26,452 bases of DNA, taken from positions 1-26,452 of IMG/VR virus record IMGVR_UViG_3300005340_000073. The stretch is one strand, 5' to 3'. The notes beneath the pieces are model-generated. The model was not told the DNA's origin. It did no database searches and saw nothing but the letters and a program-made list of their open reading frames with translations. Shown one piece after another: positions 6,991 to 26,452 of the stretch. The stretch comes from a virus. The first letter of the stretch is position 1, and each line of letters begins with the position of its first letter. The position numbers were made by a program, and so were the translations under genes.

Positions 6991-7329
6991 CAAATCTTCC
7001 CAAAAATCCAGTACTTACTAAAAAATAGTGTAAAGAATTGAGTTTTTAATTTTTATTATCGGCATTTTGAGTATATTTTTTCAGTATTTTCTTTGAGAGG
7101 TCCTAAAAATCAGCCTGTTTTGGGCAAAAATCCAAAAAAATAAACTTTCAAAAACCTCCTGTAAACACTTTTTCTTGTTTCTTTCTCAAGTTCAAATCAT
7201 GATTATGGTAAGTAAAAATCATGATTAATCAGCATTTTTGGAGTAAATTTCGCGTAAGCTATAGTAAATAGAGTTTTTCACCCAAACAATCATGATTAAT
7301 GGTGATAGTGTCAGGTCGACATTTTGAGT
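6991..7329. other. AT-rich non-coding segment before terS (candidate packaging/control region)
   Basis: This stretch of about 340 bp is dominated by A and T runs and stands out sharply from the GC-rich genes on both sides. I find no credible coding sequence in it. It carries three copies of the palindrome AATCATGATT (listed separately). Several leftward promoter-like pairs are possible, for example TTTACA and TATTTT with a 17-bp spacer on the minus strand around 7140-7170. Its position next to the small terminase fits a cos/pac site, a late promoter, or both. None of these is proven. Confidence 0.6.
7195..7297. repeat. Three copies of palindrome AATCATGATT
   Basis: Exact copies lie at 7195-7204, 7217-7226 and 7288-7297. 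Each is a perfect 10-bp palindrome and each is followed by A on the plus strand. The first two start 22 bp apart, about two helical turns. The second also overlaps another perfect palindrome, TGATTAATCA (7222-7231). This arrangement is typical of a multi-site binding region for a dimeric protein. Confidence 0.75.
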
Positions 7330-15025: not shown

Positions 15026-15054
15026 TTGACAAAGTTGCAAACTTCCTGTACAAT
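15026..15054 (+). promoter_or_regulatory. Rightward early promoter
   Basis: TTGACA (15026-15031) is a perfect -35. TACAAT (15049-15054) is a five-of-six -10, and the spacer is exactly 17 bp. It reads into the early operon starting at 15091 and is the counterpart of lambda PR. Confidence 0.8.
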
Positions 15055-15090
15055 CTGCTTGACAGTTGAATCCATGTTACAGAGGTAGTT

Positions 15091-15303
15091 ATGACCGATA
15101 CACCTGACAGAGACCTGGCCTCAGTCCAACTCAGTGGCGTACAGCTTGCGAAGGCCCGCGACATCGCAGAAACCATGGGTGTCACGGTCGCTAAAGTCAC
15201 TCGATGGGCAATCGACGAATTCGATCTCGCTCTTTTTTTGGCCAAGCGTCAAGCAGATTTGACAGGACAGACTAATCAACTGTCTGCTGAGGTGCCCGCA
15301 TGA
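15091..15303 (+). CDS. Probable ribbon-helix-helix regulator at the cro position (70 aa)
   Basis: It is the first gene of the early operon, with AGAGG 5 nt before the ATG. The segment VQLSGVQLAKARDIAETMG, then TVAKVTRWAIDEFDLALF, fits the strand-helix-helix plan of Arc/CopG/MetJ-type regulators: a beta strand, a helix, a Gly turn, and a helix ending in hydrophobics. It may act as the Cro equivalent. The match is by pattern only. Confidence 0.6.
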   Translation: MTDTPDRDLASVQLSGVQLAKARDIAETMGVTVAKVTRWAIDEFDLALFLAKRQADLTGQTNQLSAEVPA

Positions 15304-17185: not shown

Positions 17186-17428
17186 GTGAGTATTGAAGCC
17201 CACGAAACACTCATCCATATCCAGACCTTTGCCCGCCTGATCCGAAACATCTCGATAGAGGACGTGCAAGCGCTTGCGACGGAGATTGACCTTATCGAGG
17301 CAACCCTCCCGATGCTTGATCCCACGGCCTGGATGCGCATTGCCAACACGGAAGGCGGGCACAAGGAGCTCGTGCAAGCGTTTCTTAAGTTTCGCCGCAC
17401 GGTTGAAGAATTGGCGGTGCCAGTATGA
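17186..17428 (+). CDS. Small helical early protein, unknown (80 aa)
   Basis: It starts at GTG with GAGG six nt upstream. It is mostly helical (THIQTFARLI-like opening, IEDVQALATEIDLIEATLPML, KELVQAFLKFRRTVEELA). The stop overlaps the ATG of the next gene. No family was recognised; it may be a partner of the XPF-like protein with which it is coupled. Confidence 0.65.
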   Translation: MSIEAHETLIHIQTFARLIRNISIEDVQALATEIDLIEATLPMLDPTAWMRIANTEGGHKELVQAFLKFRRTVEELAVPV

Positions 17429-18192
17429 CTGATCATCCTGTCCGTGCAATCTGTCTCGACGAGCAGCCCTCGCCGGTCTTTACCCGGCACTTTCAGGCGT
17501 GGCAGCGGACGGCGCTGCCACTGAACGACCCCGAGCTCATCCTCGTCATGCCCAGCGACGGCACGATGCTCGTCTGCCGCTACATGCCCACGGGCGAGCT
17601 CCTGGACTACATCCGGACGCAGCGCCTGCCGGCGTTACTCGCGCAGCTGCGCCAGCGTGGCAGCGAGTGGATCTATCTCATTCTGGACGGCGAGCTCAAG
17701 CCCAACACGAGCAGCAAGACCGTGCATAACGGCAATACAACCGCCTTCGACTGGAAGGCCATCCAGGGTACGCTGCTGAGCATCCAGGAGGCCGGCGTGG
17801 GCGTCGTCTGGCTGCAAAGCGTCGAGCAGCTGCAAGACCAGGTCTATCTGCTGGCGAAGCGCGACCGCACGCAGAAGCGCGTCAGGCCGCCGCGCGACAT
17901 GCTGTTCATGACGCCCGCCGAAGACATTATTCTCGCGCTACCGGGCATCGGCGAAGACCGCGCGCATGAACTGCTCAAGCAGGCCGGCAATAGCGCCGCC
18001 TGGCTGCTCGACCTGCTGACCGATCTCTCGTCGACGGCGAAGCTCGACGGCATCGGCCCGGAGACCAAGCGCAAGATCCGGCAGGCGCTTGGCCTCTCGG
18101 ACCAGACGCGCCTCGCCGTCCTCGCACGTGAGGCCGAAGACGCGATGCTGCCCGACGTTGACCCTGACGAGGTTCTCTACGCCGTTATGTAG
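17425..18192 (+). CDS. XPF/ERCC4-like nuclease-fold protein with two HhH motifs (255 aa)
   Basis: The N-terminal half follows the ERCC4 nuclease plan: strands around ELILVMPSDG, then a helix GELLDYIRTQRLPALLAQLR, then the strand EWIYLILDGE that equals the LLIEG strand, and a helix with AIQGTLLSIQEAGVGVVWLQS. The C-terminal half has two helix-hairpin-helix motifs, ALPGIGEDRAHELLKQAGN (about 171-189) and LDGIGPETKRKIRQALG (about 207-223). The family's ERKxxxD catalytic motif should fall near residues 51-61, where CRYMPTGELLD stands instead, so key acidic and basic residues seem lost. It may be a structure-specific DNA binder rather than a nuclease. It lies directly before recT. Confidence 0.75.
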   Translation: MTDHPVRAICLDEQPSPVFTRHFQAWQRTALPLNDPELILVMPSDGTMLVCRYMPTGELLDYIRTQRLPALLAQLRQRGSEWIYLILDGELKPNTSSKTVHNGNTTAFDWKAIQGTLLSIQEAGVGVVWLQSVEQLQDQVYLLAKRDRTQKRVRPPRDMLFMTPAEDIILALPGIGEDRAHELLKQAGNSAAWLLDLLTDLSSTAKLDGIGPETKRKIRQALGLSDQTRLAVLAREAEDAMLPDVDPDEVLYAVM

Positions 18193-18923: not shown

Positions 18924-19333
18924 GCGCCTTTCGCCACACGCGCGCCTGCTATCGCCATCAGCGTGAGACCGAGATGCTCGCCATCGACTGGCTGGGACGC
19001 CACAAGAACGCCTGCAAAGACTGTCATGGCACCGGCTATATGCCGCGCATGCTGTATGTTCCCGAGGCCGGCACGCTGATCTGCGAATGCATCGAGGCCG
19101 GTCAATGCTCGGCCTGTGGCGAGTTCACCCGGCCGCCTGACGACCTGACAACGCCCTGCACGCGCTGCGGCTTTTACCCGGCGATGCCCAATACCGATCC
19201 CGATCCGATGACGACGCGCCCGGACTGCATCTGCGGCGCCCTGGAGTGGGAGCGGCAAGCACAGGAGCTTCATGATGCCAATCGCACGTCTGAGCCCGGC
19301 CGACGGCGGCCTGGCGCTCGAAAGTCCGTATGA
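18920..19333 (+). CDS. DnaJ-type cysteine-rich protein (137 aa)
   Basis: It contains CKDCHGTGYM, the CxxCxGxG signature of the DnaJ zinc-binding region, followed by ICECIEAGQCSACGEF and PCTRCGFYP, giving several CxxC pairs. It then ends with a basic tail. It starts at a GTG that overlaps the preceding stop. The 3' end overlaps the J-domain gene by 62 nt. It resembles the zinc-binding half of a DnaJ without the J domain and is next to a separate J-domain gene, so the two products may work together on a host Hsp70 or on phage complexes. Confidence 0.65.
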   Translation: MSAFRHTRACYRHQRETEMLAIDWLGRHKNACKDCHGTGYMPRMLYVPEAGTLICECIEAGQCSACGEFTRPPDDLTTPCTRCGFYPAMPNTDPDPMTTRPDCICGALEWERQAQELHDANRTSEPGRRRPGARKSV

Positions 19334-20186
19334 CGCGGCGCTCGTCGCCGCGATAAAGGCTTTGCCGTACAACGACCGGCGCTGGGACCAGGCGCGCAAG
19401 CGCTGGATCATCGCCCACGAGAAAGCGCCGGAGATCTGCCGCCTGGTCGAGCAGCATCTGGGCGTGACGCTCCAGATTCCGGCGGCCGGTCCCGGCGCCG
19501 CCAGCGAGCTGCGCGTCCTGCGCGTCGAGTACGTCGGCCGCGCCAAAGCACGCGACGACGGCACGTCGAACGCATCGGGATATCTTGGCCAGAACGATCG
19601 TTCGCTCGTCTTTCCGGAATCCGTCCTGCGCGCCTGGTTTCTCGACGATCTTGACGACGGGACGCCGGCAACGAACGGGGCCGACAAGCGTCCGCGCACG
19701 CCCACCGGCCCCCTGACACTCTACACGATCCTGGCCATCAAGCAGACAGCGACGGCCGACGAGCTCAAGAAAGCCTATCGGCGTCTGGTGATGCAGCTGC
19801 ATCCCGATCACAACAAAGAGCCGGACGCGAGCGAGCAGTTTCAGCGTCTGCAACACGCCTACGACGTGCTCAAAGACGCGAAGACGCGCCGCAAGTACGA
19901 CGCCGGGCTCAAGCTCGAAGCGAGTCTTACAAAGCACGAGCCTGAGCCGTTTCGTCCCTACGGCCGGCCCAAGAACATGGCCGTCAACCGGCACGACGAC
20001 GAGGCGCTGGGCTATCGCAGTCCATTGCGCTGCGGGATGCTCGTGTGCGAGGGCACGCCGCGCGTTGGCCAGTTCATCGTCTCGAAGATCCTGAAATGGG
20101 ACGACATCATCGACGGCCAGGGCCGGACGATGGTCTCGAGCTGGCCCGTCTACGGCGACAGCTACGAAGTCACCTGGTGGATTTAG
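19272..20186 (+). CDS. J-domain protein with HARP-like N-terminal segment (304 aa)
   Basis: Residues about 15-65 (LESPYDAALVAAIKALPYN, DRRWDQARKRWIIAHE) resemble the short domain seen in front of SNF2/HARP-type proteins. Residues about 148-215 are a complete J domain: LTLYTILAIKQTATADELKK, the invariant HPD at 177-179 in LHPDHNKEPDASEQF, and YDVLKDAKTRRKYDAG. J domains stimulate Hsp70 ATPase. The C-terminal 80 residues are a beta-rich unknown domain. AGGAG is four nt before the ATG. In phages, J proteins can recruit DnaK to replication complexes, but that role is inferred here from the neighbouring replication genes. Confidence 0.85.
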   Translation: MMPIARLSPADGGLALESPYDAALVAAIKALPYNDRRWDQARKRWIIAHEKAPEICRLVEQHLGVTLQIPAAGPGAASELRVLRVEYVGRAKARDDGTSNASGYLGQNDRSLVFPESVLRAWFLDDLDDGTPATNGADKRPRTPTGPLTLYTILAIKQTATADELKKAYRRLVMQLHPDHNKEPDASEQFQRLQHAYDVLKDAKTRRKYDAGLKLEASLTKHEPEPFRPYGRPKNMAVNRHDDEALGYRSPLRCGMLVCEGTPRVGQFIVSKILKWDDIIDGQGRTMVSSWPVYGDSYEVTWWI

Positions 20187-20823: not shown

Positions 20824-21428
20824 ACACATCTACCAGCATCGTGCCTGGGAGCCTCCAGGCCATCGCAACGGCCAACGGCGGCAGCCTCGCAGAATCCTTC
20901 GTGACCTGCGATCACTGCATCATCGTTGATACATCCGGCAGCATGGGCGCCGTCGATAGCGAGCCGGCTCGGACCATCAACGAGGGCCGGAAGCGTGGCC
21001 AGACGAAGACCCGCTATGAGCGTGCCTGCGACGAACTCAAGACCTTACAGGCAACACTGCCGGGCAAGATCGCCGTAATTAGCTTCTCGTCAGGCGTCGA
21101 ATTCTGCCCGTCGGGCGTTCCAACGAATCTCGGTTCCAGTACCGATCTCGCCGGTGCGCTCAAGTTCGCGCGTGTCGCCGACGACTGCGACATGAGCTTT
21201 ACGGTGATCAGCGATGGCCAACCGGATAGCGAGGAGGCAGCCTTGCGTGAGGCCGCGAAGTACACGTCCAAGATCTCGACGGTGTTCTGTGGGTCGGCTG
21301 GCGGACCTGGCGAGGAATTTTTACGTCGATTAGCTCAAGCGAGCGGTGGACAAGCCGTCACCAGTGCACACGCTGTCAATCTGGGAAAGGATGTGCAGCG
21401 GCTTCTCACGACAGGGACAACACGATGA
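20820..21428 (+). CDS. VWA (MIDAS) domain protein (202 aa)
   Basis: It has the complete metal-ion-dependent adhesion site: DTSGS (37-41), a threonine in GSSTDLAGAL (T108), and an aspartate in VISDGQPD (D132). The rest follows the alternating strand/helix Rossmann-type pattern of von Willebrand factor A domains. An N-terminal stretch of about 30 residues precedes it. VWA proteins in bacteria usually partner an AAA+ ATPase or act in protein-assembly complexes, but no AAA+ partner other than the SF3 helicase is seen. It is coupled to the ASCH and HNH genes by ATGA overlaps. No signal peptide, so it is cytoplasmic. Confidence 0.85.
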   Translation: MNTSTSIVPGSLQAIATANGGSLAESFVTCDHCIIVDTSGSMGAVDSEPARTINEGRKRGQTKTRYERACDELKTLQATLPGKIAVISFSSGVEFCPSGVPTNLGSSTDLAGALKFARVADDCDMSFTVISDGQPDSEEAALREAAKYTSKISTVFCGSAGGPGEEFLRRLAQASGGQAVTSAHAVNLGKDVQRLLTTGTTR

Positions 21429-21904
21429 ACGACAAGGATCTCAAGCGATTTTGGTCGAAGGTCCAAAAGACAGACAACTGTTGGATTTGGACGGGCGGTG
21501 TTTTTCATTGTGCTAATGGTGACTACGGTCGATTCTGGCTTGGAACGAAAGCGACAGGAAAAGATCTCTACGCGCATCGTGTTTCGTTTGAACTTGCGAA
21601 TGGCCCTATTCCGGATGGGGTCGATGTTTGCCATAGCTGTGATAACCCGATCTGTGTCAATCCGGCACACCTTTGGCCGGGAACACATCTCGACAATATG
21701 CGTGATATGTACAAGAAGGGACGACGCACAGCCGCAATCGGTGAGCGAGTTGGAACTGCGAAATTGACATGGGATCGCGTGAGGTCTATGCGGGCCTATT
21801 ACAACGATAACCCGATGCCTTTCCATGTTCTGGGTGCCAACTTCGGTGTGAGCGGAGCCACAGCGCACAAGATCATCCGACATCAACTTTGGCGCGAGGA
21901 ATAA
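21425..21904 (+). CDS. HNH homing-type endonuclease (159 aa)
   Basis: The HNH_3-type core reads YAHRVSFELANGPIPDGVDV, then CHSCDNPICVNPAHLWPGTH, with the His/Asn/His positions around residues 70-91 intact. This is followed by NMRDMYKKGR, typical of free-standing HNH mobile enzymes. The C-terminal part (TWDRVRSMRAYY, then VLGANFGVSGATAHKIIR) is a helix-turn-helix for DNA binding. Its base composition is clearly more AT-rich than neighbouring early genes, a sign of recent transfer. It overlaps the VWA gene by ATGA, so it has settled into the operon without breaking it. Confidence 0.9.
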   Translation: MNDKDLKRFWSKVQKTDNCWIWTGGVFHCANGDYGRFWLGTKATGKDLYAHRVSFELANGPIPDGVDVCHSCDNPICVNPAHLWPGTHLDNMRDMYKKGRRTAAIGERVGTAKLTWDRVRSMRAYYNDNPMPFHVLGANFGVSGATAHKIIRHQLWREE

Positions 21905-21923: not shown

Positions 21924-22160
21924 ATGCGACCGAAAGATCCGAGCGAACTCCTGACGATGTTCAATTCACAGGCAAACGGCGATCCAATCTTCGGGACAAC
22001 CAACAATGTTGCGTGGCGTATCGAGCCGCGTGTGACAGACTTTACGACATTCTTCATCGTTAGGGTTGGACCTCGCATCAAGACGTGCCTGAGCATGAAA
22101 GCCGCTCAACGAGAACATCCCGTTCTCGTTGAGACATTCGCACCACGTCTCTCGGCATGA
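21924..22160 (+). CDS. Small early protein, unknown (78 aa)
   Basis: It reads MRPKDPSELLTMFNSQANG, a middle with NNVAWRIEPRVTDFTTFFIV and a basic C-terminal part. No family was recognised. GGGGCAGG lies upstream, and the stop overlaps the primase-helicase ATG. The 3' part encodes a 12-bp perfect RNA hairpin (22105-22133). Like the HNH gene it is more AT-rich, so the two may have come together. Confidence 0.6.
   Translation: MRPKDPSELLTMFNSQANGDPIFGTTNNVAWRIEPRVTDFTTFFIVRVGPRIKTCLSMKAAQREHPVLVETFAPRLSA
22105..22133. repeat. Perfect 12-bp hairpin before the primase-helicase gene
   Basis: CTCAACGAGAAC and GTTCTCGTTGAG flank a 5-nt loop (ATCCC). It lies inside the 78-aa coding sequence, 24 bp upstream of the primase-helicase start. 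No T-run follows, so it is not a classic terminator. It could be a control element for translation of the large downstream gene or a protein binding site. Confidence 0.65.
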
Positions 22161-24484
22161 CGACGGGCGACCAGGTGCTCGCCTATCTGGCGGCATACGA
22201 CCTTGAGCAGACCGGGCAATATTCCTGGCGCTGCAACTCGCCGCTCCGTGCGAACTCAAACTCGCACAGCTTCACGCTGGATCTGGATCCGGACGGCGAG
22301 TACGGTGCCTGGTACGATCACCGTGACGACACCGGCGGCTCACTCTACAAGTTGCGCGACCTCCTGAATCTGCCGAAGCAGACGCCCGTGCCCGTCCCGC
22401 CGTCGGGCACCAAACGCGCGTACGTCGACCTCGCCGATTATGCGCAAGCCCATCACGTCGCCGAGTCGGTCTTCGTCGCCGCCGGCTGGCAGAATGCGTT
22501 CTGGTTCGCGCAGCCCGCGCTCAGCTTCCCAACGCCCCACGGCGCACGCTACCGGCTCATAGATGGCTCAAAAGACACTTATATCCAGGCTGGCGGCTAC
22601 AAAGCCTGCCTCTATCGCCTGCAGGAAGCGCTCAGCATCGCGCAGGCATCGACCCAGCCGCTGGTGCTCTGCAACGGCGAGGCGAGCACCGTCGTCGCCC
22701 AGCATCACGGTGTCGCTACCACCTGTCAGAACATGGGCGAGAAGAAGTTGACGCCCGACAGTCTCAAGGCACTCGTCGCTGCCTATCCACCGCAGCACCT
22801 GCAGGACGGCGACGTCGAGATCCTGATCGTCTTCGATAGCGACGACAAGGGCCGGAAGGCCGCACCCAAAGTCCTGGAGCAGCTGCAGGACGCAGGTTAT
22901 GTCGTCCGTGCTGTCGACCTGCAGGGCAGCGACGGCTTTGACCTGGCCGACTTTTGCGGCCTGCACGGCGCCAGCAGTGCCGCAGACCTCGCGAGCTTGC
23001 CAGACCTGCCAGGTACGCAGGCGAAGCCGGCAAGTACAAGTACAGGCAGCGCATCTGTACATGTACAGGCGCGTGTACAGGCTCCCAGTCAAGCGCAAAC
23101 GCCGCGCATCCTGCTCGACGCCAATCTCTCCGACGCCGGGAACGCCGAGTGCCTCGTCGCGCTCTATCCCGACTTGCTCAGGTTCGACCACACGCGCCGG
23201 CGCAGTAACGGCTGGCTCTCCTGGAGCGGCCAGCGCTGGCAGGTCGATAGTGCCGGCATCGCGCAGCGTTTCGCGCTCCTGACTGTCCGCAATCGCTACC
23301 AGGCGGCCGTGCACGAGCAGAGCCTGGATCGACGCAAGAAGCTCACGACGCACGCTGTCAGCAGCGAGAACGCGACCAAGCTCCGGGCGCAGCTCGAGGT
23401 CGCGCAGACGCTCAGCCCGTATGCAACCCGCATCGACCAGTACGATCAGGATCCCTGGCTGGCGACGGTCGTCAACGGCACGCTGGATCTGCGCACGCGC
23501 CGGTTGCGCCCGGCCAGCGCAGCCGACATGATCACGATGCAGCTGGGCACACACGTCGACCAGACGGCGACCTGTCCGCGCTGGGAGCAGTTCTTACGCG
23601 AGGTCTTCGCCGGCGACGCCGATCTCATCGCCTATATCCAGCGCGCCGTGGGCTATAGCCTGACGGGCGATACCAGCGAGCAGAAGCTCTTCCTGTGCCA
23701 CGGCCAGGGCGCGAACGGCAAGTCTGTCTTCCTGGGCACGCTGCAGGCGCTCTTCGGCGAGTACGCGGCGACGGCCAGTTTTCACACGTTTGATGCCGAG
23801 AAGCGCAGCGAGGCGACGAACGACCTGGCAATGCTCCGGGCGCGGCGCCTCGTGACGATTATTGAGACCAACGACGACCGGCGGCTCGACGAGGCAAAAG
23901 TCAAACAGGTAACCGGCGGCGATCCCATCACCTGCCGCTTCCTGTATGGCGAGTTCTTTAGCTATATCCCCAGCTTCAAGATCTGGATGGCGATGAACTA
24001 TAAGCCGGGGATCCGTGGGACAGACCGCGGCATCTGGCGACGTATCGCCCTGATCCCGTTCGACGCCAGCTTCGAGCAAACGATGGACCGGCAGCTGGGC
24101 GCGAAGCTGCTGCACGAACTGCCGGGCATTCTGAACTGGTCGCTTGCCGGCCTCGCCGCCTGGCAAGCGACCGGCCTCGGCAGTGCTCTGGCGGTCGACC
24201 AGGCGACGACGGCCTACCGGCGGGAGAGCGACGAAGTCGGGAAGTGGCTCGTCGAGAGCTGCATCGACGAGGCCGGCGCCTATCTCGTGAGCAGCGAAGC
24301 CTACACGAACTACAACGACTGGGCGAAGGCGCGCGGCGAGCAGCGGCCACTCACACAGAACGCCTGGGGCCGCGAGATGGGCCATCGCTATGCGAGCAAG
24401 CGCCTGACCATCTCGCCAAATCCGCGTCTCGTGACCGTCTATGACGGCCTGCGGCTGCGCACGATGAACGATATCGGACCATAG
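22157..24484 (+). CDS. Primase-helicase: TOPRIM-like plus D5/P4-type SF3 helicase (775 aa)
   Basis: This is the replication enzyme. The N-terminal part resembles a primase zinc-finger/TOPRIM region: WRCNSPLRANSNSHSFTLDL and GAWYDHRDDTGG, then CNGEAS with E175 and VFDSDDKG with D227 and D229. A low-complexity linker (about 286-315) follows. The C-terminal part is a D5_N domain (DPWLATVVNGTLDLRTRR, about 432-450) and an SF3 helicase, with Walker A GQGANGKS (516-523), Walker B RLVTIIETND (564-573), sensor KIWMAMNYKP (608-617) and the arginine region GIWRRIALIPF (625-635). Key residues are present. The ATG overlaps the previous stop. GTACAGGC repeats in the linker-coding DNA may mark the origin. 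Confidence 0.92.
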   Translation: MTTGDQVLAYLAAYDLEQTGQYSWRCNSPLRANSNSHSFTLDLDPDGEYGAWYDHRDDTGGSLYKLRDLLNLPKQTPVPVPPSGTKRAYVDLADYAQAHHVAESVFVAAGWQNAFWFAQPALSFPTPHGARYRLIDGSKDTYIQAGGYKACLYRLQEALSIAQASTQPLVLCNGEASTVVAQHHGVATTCQNMGEKKLTPDSLKALVAAYPPQHLQDGDVEILIVFDSDDKGRKAAPKVLEQLQDAGYVVRAVDLQGSDGFDLADFCGLHGASSAADLASLPDLPGTQAKPASTSTGSASVHVQARVQAPSQAQTPRILLDANLSDAGNAECLVALYPDLLRFDHTRRRSNGWLSWSGQRWQVDSAGIAQRFALLTVRNRYQAAVHEQSLDRRKKLTTHAVSSENATKLRAQLEVAQTLSPYATRIDQYDQDPWLATVVNGTLDLRTRRLRPASAADMITMQLGTHVDQTATCPRWEQFLREVFAGDADLIAYIQRAVGYSLTGDTSEQKLFLCHGQGANGKSVFLGTLQALFGEYAATASFHTFDAEKRSEATNDLAMLRARRLVTIIETNDDRRLDEAKVKQVTGGDPITCRFLYGEFFSYIPSFKIWMAMNYKPGIRGTDRGIWRRIALIPFDASFEQTMDRQLGAKLLHELPGILNWSLAGLAAWQATGLGSALAVDQATTAYRRESDEVGKWLVESCIDEAGAYLVSSEAYTNYNDWAKARGEQRPLTQNAWGREMGHRYASKRLTISPNPRLVTVYDGLRLRTMNDIGP
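23013..23082. repeat. GTACAGGC iteron-like cluster inside the primase-helicase gene
   Basis: Exact GTACAGGC copies lie at 23040-23047, 23063-23070 and 23075-23082. Further GTAC cores are at 23013, 23034 and 23057. They encode a low-complexity linker and use GTA and ACA codons that are scarce elsewhere in this gene, as if the DNA sequence rather than the protein were conserved. Lambda-like phages hold their origin inside the replication-initiator gene in the same way. Confidence 0.5.
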
Positions 24485-24493
24485 GAGAACAAG

Positions 24494-25573
24494 ATGGGTA
24501 TTGCTGAATTTCTGGATGCGCCCGATAGCGCATTGTTGATCGCTATCGACGGCGACGTGAATCTCGTCACGACCCACCATGAAACTGAGACCAGAACGAT
24601 TATCGATCGGTTTCCGCTGGGACCCGTCGCCAACGTCGACGCCGTGCTGGCGCTGCTAGGCATGCAGGGATTACTCCAGACGCAGACGATAGCGCCTGTT
24701 GCGCCGGCACTTCCTGAGAAACAGCAGCCCGCGCTTCCGGCACCGCAGTCCGATCGTCCCTACGTCTGCGACGATTGTGGCAAGGGCTTCGGCGATCGTT
24801 GGAATCTCAAACGGCATCGCACGCGCATGCATGGTGTTGCCGACGCTGAGCAGCTCCCAGGCGAGTCTAGCGAGTTTCGCTGCCCGGAGTGTCCACAATC
24901 GTTTGTGAAGAAACGGGCGCTCGGCATGCATCGGTTGCGTATGCACGGCGTCCATGCCAAGCCGCGCCGCAAGCCCATCACGGGCGAGCACGCCTGTCCG
25001 GACTGCGACGCGCGATTCGAGACGCCCCTGACCCTCAGCATGCACCAGATGAAAGTCCATCGCATCCAGCCCCCGCCGGCGCTCATGGCAGTAACTGCGC
25101 CGGCATCACAGGCTGCTCCAGAGAACCAGAATCCACCGGCGACGCCTGAAGTGGCGACAGAGGTCGCTTGCGACCTCTGCAATCGGACGTTCAAGAGCCA
25201 GCATGCGCTCAGCGTTCACAAAGCCCGCGCCCATACCGGGTCGACCTGGTCGACCCGCCCGAAGGCTGACAAGCCACAGGAGCTACCAGAACCGGCGTCT
25301 GAGCCGATCGTCGCAACTGCACCGTCGATCCCCTCGATCGACGACGTCCCACCGGTGCATCATCGCAAAGCGGCCGTGCTAGCAGATGGCTCCTGTCCGG
25401 TGTGCCACGAGCCATTGCTGACGCATGAGAAGTGCGAGGGCTGCGGGGTGCTCGTCGGGCCTGGCCATGAGACCGAGCGCAGTATTTTCATCACCGGCGC
25501 CGACTACTGTCGAGACTGCGCACGAGGACGCATCGCCGCCCGCAAGGCCGAGCTTGCCGCACACGCGTCATGA
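24494..25573 (+). CDS. Protein with four C2H2 zinc fingers and a C-terminal zinc ribbon (359 aa)
   Basis: After an N-terminal domain of about 70 residues (unknown) come four fingers, each exactly C-x2-C-x12-H-x4-H with the conserved Phe and Leu: C92/C95/H108/H113, C130/C133/H146/H151, C168/C171/H184/H189 and C226/C229/H242/H247. Linkers are 14-16 residues between fingers 1-3 and 36 between 3 and 4, unlike the short TGEKP linker of eukaryotic arrays. Predicted DNA-contact residues (-1,2,3,6) are D/W/N/R, K/R/A/M, T/L/T/M and S/H/A/V. A Pro/Glu-rich spacer leads to six cysteines (C301, C304, C314, C317, C339, C342), a zinc ribbon. It probably binds nucleic acid. GGAG precedes the ATG. The biological role is unknown. 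Confidence 0.9.
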   Translation: MGIAEFLDAPDSALLIAIDGDVNLVTTHHETETRTIIDRFPLGPVANVDAVLALLGMQGLLQTQTIAPVAPALPEKQQPALPAPQSDRPYVCDDCGKGFGDRWNLKRHRTRMHGVADAEQLPGESSEFRCPECPQSFVKKRALGMHRLRMHGVHAKPRRKPITGEHACPDCDARFETPLTLSMHQMKVHRIQPPPALMAVTAPASQAAPENQNPPATPEVATEVACDLCNRTFKSQHALSVHKARAHTGSTWSTRPKADKPQELPEPASEPIVATAPSIPSIDDVPPVHHRKAAVLADGSCPVCHEPLLTHEKCEGCGVLVGPGHETERSIFITGADYCRDCARGRIAARKAELAAHAS

Positions 25574-25794
25574 GACGCCGGCGGCCGGTCTCCTGGCGCA
25601 GTCACGCCGGCAAGACCAAGTACAAGACGCTGCGGGTCGCGCGCTGGAGTGCGACGGCACGCGCGGCCGTCTCGGGCGACCCGATCGGCGCCTATCGCTG
25701 TCTGATCTGCGGCCGGTTTCATATCGGCCACGGCGCCGGCATCGGTCCGACGCGCGACAAGCCCTGGCTCTATGACGACCACCGAAAGCGATAG
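25570..25794 (+). CDS. Small basic zinc-site protein (74 aa)
   Basis: A very basic N-terminus (MRRRRPVSWRSHAGKTKYKT) precedes YRCLICGRFHIGHG, a C-x2-C-x3-H-x2-H cluster that can bind one zinc. This resembles small phage proteins with a Y-x-C-x2-CG-x-H-x-x-H core that I have seen near replication genes. The ATG overlaps the stop of the C2H2 gene (ATGA), so the two are coupled. The function is unknown. Confidence 0.75.
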   Translation: MRRRRPVSWRSHAGKTKYKTLRVARWSATARAAVSGDPIGAYRCLICGRFHIGHGAGIGPTRDKPWLYDDHRKR

Positions 25795-25816
25795 ATACGC
25801 AAGAAAGGACAAACCA

Positions 25817-26032
25817 GTGGACAAATTGACGTTACGCCCTGTCGAAGTCGCCGAAACACTCGGTCTTTCGCGGTCGCGTGTGTATGAGCTTATTCATAGC
25901 GGTGAGATGCCGGCCATTCGCGTTGGGACGTCGATCCTGGTCTCGGTGGAAGCGCTCCGCCAGTGGATAGCCGACCAAGAGCCCGTCGCGCCGGTTGCAG
26001 CCGGCGGCTACACTTGGCGCGACCGGATATAG
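25817..26032 (+). CDS. xis: Excisionase-type helix-turn-helix protein (71 aa)
   Basis: The sequence LRPVEVAETLGLSRSRVYEL, then IHSGEMPAIRVGTSILVSVE and ALRQWIADQ, is the MerR/AlpA-type winged HTH of the excisionase family (HTH_17). These bend DNA at att sites to favour excision. The start is taken at GTG 25817 with AAAGGA 7 nt upstream. An ATG at 25772 lies inside the previous gene and lacks a ribosome binding site. It is 18 bp upstream of the integrase gene, the usual partner. Confidence 0.85.
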   Translation: MDKLTLRPVEVAETLGLSRSRVYELIHSGEMPAIRVGTSILVSVEALRQWIADQEPVAPVAAGGYTWRDRI

Positions 26033-26050: not shown

Positions 26051-26452
26051 ATGAGCAAGAAACGGGGCAATAACGAAGGCTCAATCTACTATCGGAAGAG
26101 CGACAAACGGTGGTGCGGATCGATCACCATAGGTCGCAACGACAATGGGAAGGCACGGAGACGGGTTGTCTACGGGACGACCCGGCGCGATGTCAGCGAG
26201 AAACTCACTGAGATCCAGCGCGCTGCCAGCAACGGCCTGTCCATCGACGGCACGCGCGTATCGGTTGCGCAACATCTGGAGCAGTGGCTGACCGCAACGG
26301 TCGCGCCGCGTGTTCGGCCGTCGACGCTGTATAGCTACCGCAATTATGTCGCGTGGTATCTGGTGCCAGACCTCGGCACGATCAAGGTCGCCAGGCTGAA
26401 GAAGGAGGACGTACAAAAGACCGTGAATCGACTACTCATGGCCGGGCGGTCA
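26051..26452 (+). CDS. int: Tyrosine integrase, N-terminal part (3' end cut off)
   Basis: 134 codons are seen. The N-terminus NNEGSIYYRKSDKRWCGSIT is the AP2-like arm-binding domain of phage integrases, with GSI and the RW pair. From about residue 75 (TRVSVAQHLEQWLTATVAPR) comes the SAM-like core-binding domain, with STLYSYRNYVAWYLVPDLGT and VARLKKEDVQKTVNRLL. The catalytic domain with the R-H-R-Y residues lies beyond the window. GAGGG lies 5 nt before the ATG. It should integrate the phage genome at the host attachment site; no att site was identifiable here. Confidence 0.92.
   Translation, partial: MSKKRGNNEGSIYYRKSDKRWCGSITIGRNDNGKARRRVVYGTTRRDVSEKLTEIQRAASNGLSIDGTRVSVAQHLEQWLTATVAPRVRPSTLYSYRNYVAWYLVPDLGTIKVARLKKEDVQKTVNRLLMAGRS

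Follow-up and report, generated by a model that had tools for sequence, protein, structure and literature searches.

Arrays of classical C2H2 zinc fingers are the main device by which eukaryotes read DNA, and to our knowledge they are almost absent from bacteria. In eukaryotic arrays of the TFIIIA/Zif268 type, the fingers are joined by TGEKP linkers and have H-x3-H spacing. Here we describe P0001, a protein with four tandem C2H2 fingers and a C-terminal cysteine ribbon, encoded by a virus sequence of 26,452 nucleotides (nt) (IMG/VR record IMGVR_UViG_3300005340_000073; this whole stretch is hereafter the window). Classical fingers have been reported for about 0.003% of bacterial genes, and the finger proteins of archaea and archaeal viruses mostly carry one or two fingers; in the archaeal-virus proteins, which are mostly shorter than 100 amino acids (aa), about 74% have a single finger and about 20% have two (PMC3541406). 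AFV1p06, a single-finger protein of an archaeal virus, binds zinc and DNA (PMC3541406). The Ros/MucR finger is single, with C-x2-C-x9-H spacing (PMC9779718).

P0001 resembles each of these systems in part. It shares the finger consensus, and the predicted fold of fingers 1 and 2, with the TFIIIA/Zif268-type arrays, yet its linkers of 16, 16 and 36 residues, together with its H-x4-H spacing, rule out a TGEKP-linked array. An N-terminal domain combined with a finger in a bacterial setting is common to P0001 and Ros/MucR (PMC9779718), and membership of that family is ruled out by the x12 spacing and the four fingers. AFV1p06 and the archaeal-virus fingers are likewise of eukaryotic type in a virus of a prokaryote; unlike theirs, the host of the window phage is most likely bacterial, because the window encodes a peptidoglycan amidase. 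Genes for a terminase, a CI-like repressor, a RecT-like protein and this N-acetylmuramoyl-L-alanine amidase make it most probable that the window comes from a temperate phage whose bacterial host has peptidoglycan.

The closest counterparts are phage proteins. Gp156 of Tunturiibacter phage Tunturi_5 ('zinc-finger domain protein', XOB77599.1), the best INPHARED match to the finger region (expect value (E) 0.05), also has H-x4-H fingers and a long linker, but it is 197 aa long with two fingers (one x13) in its N-terminal half, lacks the ribbon and shows no full-length similarity. In the Burrovirus 'DNA binding protein' (gp23 of Microbacterium phages Burro and Hannabella, gp21 of Gshelby23), two H-x4-H fingers come after a small N-terminal domain, and the protein matches the finger region only at E 0.2-8 (INPHARED); its fingers are divergent (the first C-x4-C, the second without the F core), its N-domain is another one and it has no ribbon. 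Proteins from IMG/VR contigs L002 (two fingers) and L011 (one finger) resemble P0001 in their layout of an N-domain, a linker and then fingers of equal spacing, and differ in having fewer fingers and no ribbon. P0001 thus falls within a known, uncharacterised kind, the phage tandem C2H2 proteins, having at least two H-x4-H fingers as do Tunturi_5 gp156, Burrovirus gp21-23 and the L002 protein. Its finger number and added ribbon exceed those of the bacteriophage members found here; four fingers in one phage protein are unusual, and its relatives in other phages are small proteins with one or two.

Four classical fingers and their predicted fold

P0001 and its parts lie on the plus strand as follows (pLDDT, predicted local distance difference test; pI, isoelectric point).

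24494..25573, +: P0001, tandem C2H2 zinc-finger protein, 359 aa, ATG start (open reading frame (ORF) list, Pfam)
24494..24685, +: N-terminal acidic domain, aa 1-64, pI 4.1, net charge -7, predicted beta-beta-beta-beta-alpha (single-sequence AlphaFold2, pLDDT about 50-65)
24767..24832, +: finger 1, CDDCGKGFGDRWNLKRHRTRMH, aa 92-113 (Pfam, motif; beta-beta-alpha, pLDDT about 94)
24881..24946, +: finger 2, CPECPQSFVKKRALGMHRLRMH, aa 130-151 (Pfam, motif; beta-beta-alpha, pLDDT about 93)
24995..25060, +: finger 3, CPDCDARFETPLTLSMHQMKVH, aa 168-189 (Pfam, motif; in the aligned model without alignment rows)
25169..25234, +: finger 4, CDLCNRTFKSQHALSVHKARAH, aa 226-247 (Pfam, motif; in the single-sequence model only)
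25394..25519, +: C-terminal cysteine region, a C4 ribbon (C301-x2-C304, C314-x2-C317) plus C339-x2-C342 (composition)

All four fingers match C-x2-C-x3-F-x5-L-x2-H-x4-H exactly, and all satisfy the classical C2H2 definition (PF00096/PF13894: C-x2-4-C-x12-H-x3-5-H with a Phe/Leu core). In 200,000 shuffles of the protein, the bare finger motif appeared once in 269 and twice in none, and the motif with its F/L core appeared once in a single shuffle. Across the whole protein, Pfam zf-C2H2_4 scored 50.9 bits against a cut-off of 27, and zf-C2H2 scored 49.3 against 25.2; both models covered four stretches. Judged by consensus and score, the four domains are members of the classical C2H2 family. An earlier sequence-only reading of this DNA had proposed four C-x2-C-x12-H-x4-H segments with Phe and Leu core residues, of the eukaryotic type and not the Ros/MucR type; the exact motif at four sites, the Pfam scores above cut-off and the x12 spacing (x9 in Ros/MucR) bear this out.

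Fingers 1 to 3 start exactly 38 residues apart and finger 4 starts 58 residues past finger 3, and the linkers, counted from the last His to the next Cys, are mostly Pro/Ala-rich; that they are longer than TGEKP, as had been noted, is correct at each of the three junctions. The finger region (aa 88-250) is basic (pI 9.3, net +8), with net charges of +4, +4 and +2 for fingers 1, 2 and 4. All 14 cysteines of the protein sit in seven CxxC pairs; eight belong to the fingers, and the other six lie in the C-terminal region. The six-cysteine ribbon previously proposed there is real as composition (301/304, 314/317, 339/342); the region matched no family in Pfam at cut-off or in NCBIfam, and ribbon searches recovered no relative. 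Its first four cysteines show a weak similarity to the ribbon found in ribosomal protein L32 (bL32; E = 0.3).

Prediction of a beta-beta-alpha fold at all four sites had been set beforehand as a check. AlphaFold2 run on the single sequence gave a poor model (mean pLDDT 42.8) in which the fingers were not folded and only the N-domain was suggested; a PDB sequence search with this domain (aa 1-64) found no match. A second AlphaFold2 model, covering fingers 1 to 3, drew on an alignment of 22 finger sequences that came from loci of archaea and other phages. Here fingers 1 and 2 were predicted as beta-beta-alpha (pLDDT about 93-94), and finger 3, which had no alignment rows, gave no fold. The expectation was therefore borne out for two of the four fingers, 1 and 2. 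The top Foldseek matches in the PDB were DNA-bound classical finger proteins, namely Aart (2i13), CTCF and ZBTB24 (best E 1.7e-3, probability 1.00), with a low template-modelling (TM) score because the linker is flexible. Cys/His conservation among the aligned fingers is not independent support, because the loci were chosen by that same Cys/His pattern.

Related finger proteins in viruses, plasmids and genomes

No full-length relative of P0001 was found in viral_contigs, INPHARED phages or plasmids, the only plasmid match being to the fingers alone. N-domain homology to L011 (p 0.10) or L002 (p 0.22) was not significant, and a score to L036 (p 0.008) was set aside as an 11-residue stretch from one of several comparisons. 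Three viral contigs (L002, L003 and L004) matched a search pattern of two fingers joined by a 16-residue linker. The L002 protein has 171 aa, with an N-domain and two fingers, and L003:4739-5746 encodes a halovirus-like HNH nuclease in which two C-x2-C-x12-H-x4-H fingers and further Cys pairs lie ahead of the nuclease, as in annotated haloviruses. P0001 itself was rejected as such a finger-HNH nuclease, having no nuclease family in Pfam or PHROGs. A single-finger pattern matched 22 viral contigs, mainly with small one-finger proteins, and Rasputia gp114 (INPHARED) has two finger-like segments. The sequence-only reading had put P0001 forward as a candidate for a new system; the evidence does not support this, since phages already have one- and two-finger proteins of like spacing and haloviruses fuse such fingers to HNH.

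A variable-linker pattern added viral contigs L032, L034, L035 and L036; six further matches (L029-L031, L033, L038 and L039) were false, lying in one odd non-finger frame, and a GTGG variant of this viral pattern gave no match. Searching genome_contigs and viral_contigs with the L011 protein returned nothing further. Among 84,980 prokaryote genomes, the variable-linker pattern matched at least 24 contigs, of which one was from Planctomycetales and the other 23 were archaeal, mostly from Thermoplasmata. These counts are lower bounds because the pattern prescribes one codon end and a range of linker lengths and so catches part of the tandem arrays. Even with this partial catch, the single Planctomycetales contig against 23 archaeal ones upholds the earlier view that tandem arrays are rare in bacterial genomes, and the frequency agrees with published counts (PMC3541406).

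Several other proteins were observed in these searches. A phage protein with a helical N-terminus (L026:6190-6897) contains three segments that resemble fingers, C-x4-C being found in two of them. A 379-aa archaeal ORF of Methanococcoides alaskense (G004:C3:463409-463912) has at least five tandem finger matches. On the conjugative IncFII Salmonella plasmid pCFSAN024579 (CP074271.1; L071:2923-3705), a gene annotated as C2H2-type zinc finger protein encodes about six fingers that are strongly eukaryote-like and joined by TGERP linkers, together with a repeat at the C-terminus. Single C-terminal fingers occur in proteins encoded beside or near major head protein genes (L015:1003-1251, L021:7573-8049 and L006:2317-3081), possibly a head-associated class of phage finger protein. 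Phage contig L011:1-9291 encodes DnaB, a topoisomerase-type zinc ribbon and the one-finger protein, followed by ubiquitin-like C and ThiF-like genes, which resemble a PRTRC cluster; the PRTRC C-like protein had no Pfam match.

Genomic context of the finger gene

The codon-position guanine-cytosine (GC) content of the finger ORF (0.68/0.51/0.70) fits coding in that frame. The gene is surrounded by the following features.

22157..24484, +: D5-type primase-helicase with Toprim, upstream neighbour of the finger gene, gap 9 nt (Pfam D5_N E 5e-22; phrog_6088 DNA primase E 2e-119)
24483..24487, +: Shine-Dalgarno-like AGGAG, 6 nt ahead of the finger-gene ATG (sequence)
25570..25794, +: 74-aa protein with C-x2-C-x3-H-x3-H (YRCLICGRFHIGH), downstream of the finger gene (phrog_14788, function unknown, E 2.4e-6)
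25772..26032, +: HTH_17/excisionase-like protein (Pfam HTH_17 E 1e-12; phrog_66 excisionase)
26051..26452, +: integrase start, truncated at the record end (phrog_1 integrase E 5e-11)

A 4-nt overlap (ATGA) joins the finger gene to the 74-aa gene, so that the two are translationally coupled. Describing the finger gene as early rests on gene order. The primase has no close relative in viral_contigs, so there is no syntenic locus to compare; no convincing iteron-like repeats were seen around it, and PADLOC found no defence system.

In a small, unblinded comparison of gene neighbourhoods, made with no statistical test, several phage finger genes lay near genes of replication or recombination. The L002 gene adjoins genes for an SNF2 helicase and an AAA_23 ATPase, the L011 one-finger protein (223 aa) is encoded downstream of DnaB, Rasputia gp114 lies between DNA helicase and Cas4 exonuclease genes, and genes for a phrog_298 exonuclease and for a serine integrase occur close to the L035 and L036 finger genes.

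Possible roles of the finger protein

Tentatively, we favour the reading that P0001 binds DNA multivalently and assists or regulates the replication/early operon of the phage. This reading is supported by four fingers above the Pfam cut-off, the predicted fold of fingers 1 and 2, Foldseek matches to DNA-bound proteins, the basic finger region next to an acidic N-domain, the Shine-Dalgarno site and position in the operon, the phage neighbourhoods and the zinc and DNA binding of AFV1p06. That the protein binds nucleic acid of some kind is quite probable; we infer zinc binding, DNA as the ligand, oligomerisation and a link to replication or early transcription. Because the linkers are flexible and mostly rich in Pro and Ala, the four fingers may each grip nearby or separate DNA sites independently, unlike a TGEKP array lying on one long site. 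The acidic N-domain probably oligomerises the protein or docks on another protein, for instance the primase-helicase whose gene directly precedes that of P0001 in the operon; the C-terminal ribbon would provide an additional zinc-stabilised contact. A bolder version, in which four separately tethered classical fingers read a composite DNA site, is fairly unlikely; here P0001 would be a eukaryote-like modular factor of phage origin, working at the promoters of the phage or where its replication begins.

Several observations weigh against a DNA-binding replication or regulatory factor. Residues at recognition-helix positions -1, 2, 3 and 6 are D,W,N,R in finger 1, K,R,A,M in finger 2, T,L,T,M in finger 3 and S,H,A,V in finger 4, so that by its residues only finger 1 looks like a conventional base-reading helix; a simple triplet code is therefore not to be assumed. 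Met or Val at helix position 6, as in fingers 2 to 4, is atypical of DNA contact, and finger 3 is not basic (net -1). No target site of the protein was identified in the analysis. Among other phages, single-finger proteins are encoded beside the major head protein gene (L015 and L021) or beside terminase (L009), which weakens the generalisation that phage fingers adjoin helicases, and the Tunturi_5 neighbour annotated as a 'replication helicase' matched no helicase family.

The main rival, which we consider somewhat unlikely, is that P0001 regulates the transcription of phage or host genes, or silences them as a nucleoid-type protein, similar to MucR, Lsr2 or H-NS; its N-domain would oligomerise while the fingers bind low-consensus or AT-rich DNA. 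An N-domain followed by a C-terminal finger is the layout of Ros/MucR (PMC9779718). A candidate target would be the spacer 6994-7329, which lies upstream of the terminase operon on the minus strand and is possibly a late-gene control region. Its GC content is 29%, against 61% for the genome, and three perfect AATCATGATT palindromes occur in it (7195, 7217 and 7288; allowing one mismatch, the window has 4 matches against 0.5 expected). However, the finger class differs from that of Ros/MucR, palindromes fit a dimeric helix-turn-helix protein at least equally, nothing links P0001 to this spacer and oligomerisation is only presumed. The residues at helix position 6, hydrophobic in fingers 2 to 4, would also suit a protein-protein adaptor whose fingers bind replisome or host proteins in place of nucleic acid, as would the non-basic finger 3, the acidic N-domain and the extra zinc ribbon, and single-finger proteins beside head genes suggest non-DNA roles for phage fingers of x12/x4 spacing too; but fingers 1, 2 and 4 are basic and the fold matches are to DNA-bound proteins, and we regard this role as unlikely.

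Binding to structured RNA or RNA-DNA hybrids, for example primers at the replication fork, by long-linker fingers as in the zf-met/JAZ type is quite unlikely. The long linkers and unconventional helix residues would fit it, and finger 4 scores weakly with zf-C2H2_jaz (E 0.004) and zf-met (E 0.04), yet both scores are below cut-off and the classical models fit far better. An H-H spacing of x5 is usual for zf-met/JAZ-type fingers, whereas that of P0001 is x4. Very improbable, finally, is a homing-endonuclease remnant that kept its DNA-binding fingers and lost its nuclease. Fingers of x12/x4 spacing are fused to HNH in L003 and annotated haloviruses, with two fingers ahead of the HNH domain, and an HNH gene is also present in the window (21425-21904; Pfam, PHROGs); against this, P0001 has no HNH or other nuclease signature, and the intact operon coupling and Shine-Dalgarno site speak against a decaying gene.

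Whichever ligand the fingers of P0001 bind, this four-finger protein and the scattered one- and two-finger phage proteins show that, in the bacterial world, classical fingers have a reservoir in phages. With these proteins, the action of fingers in the absence of TGEKP linkers and chromatin can be tested directly, and they bear on the origin of eukaryotic and archaeal fingers.

Other features of the window

In the spacer upstream of the CI-like repressor gene (15041-15299), a 25-nt inverted repeat with arms 174 nt apart (15044-15267) likely represents operators. The early operon also encodes a DnaJ-domain protein (19272-20186; E 2e-22), and a protein with weak matches to ERCC4 nuclease and helix-hairpin-helix domains (17425-18192) is encoded next to the RecT-like gene.
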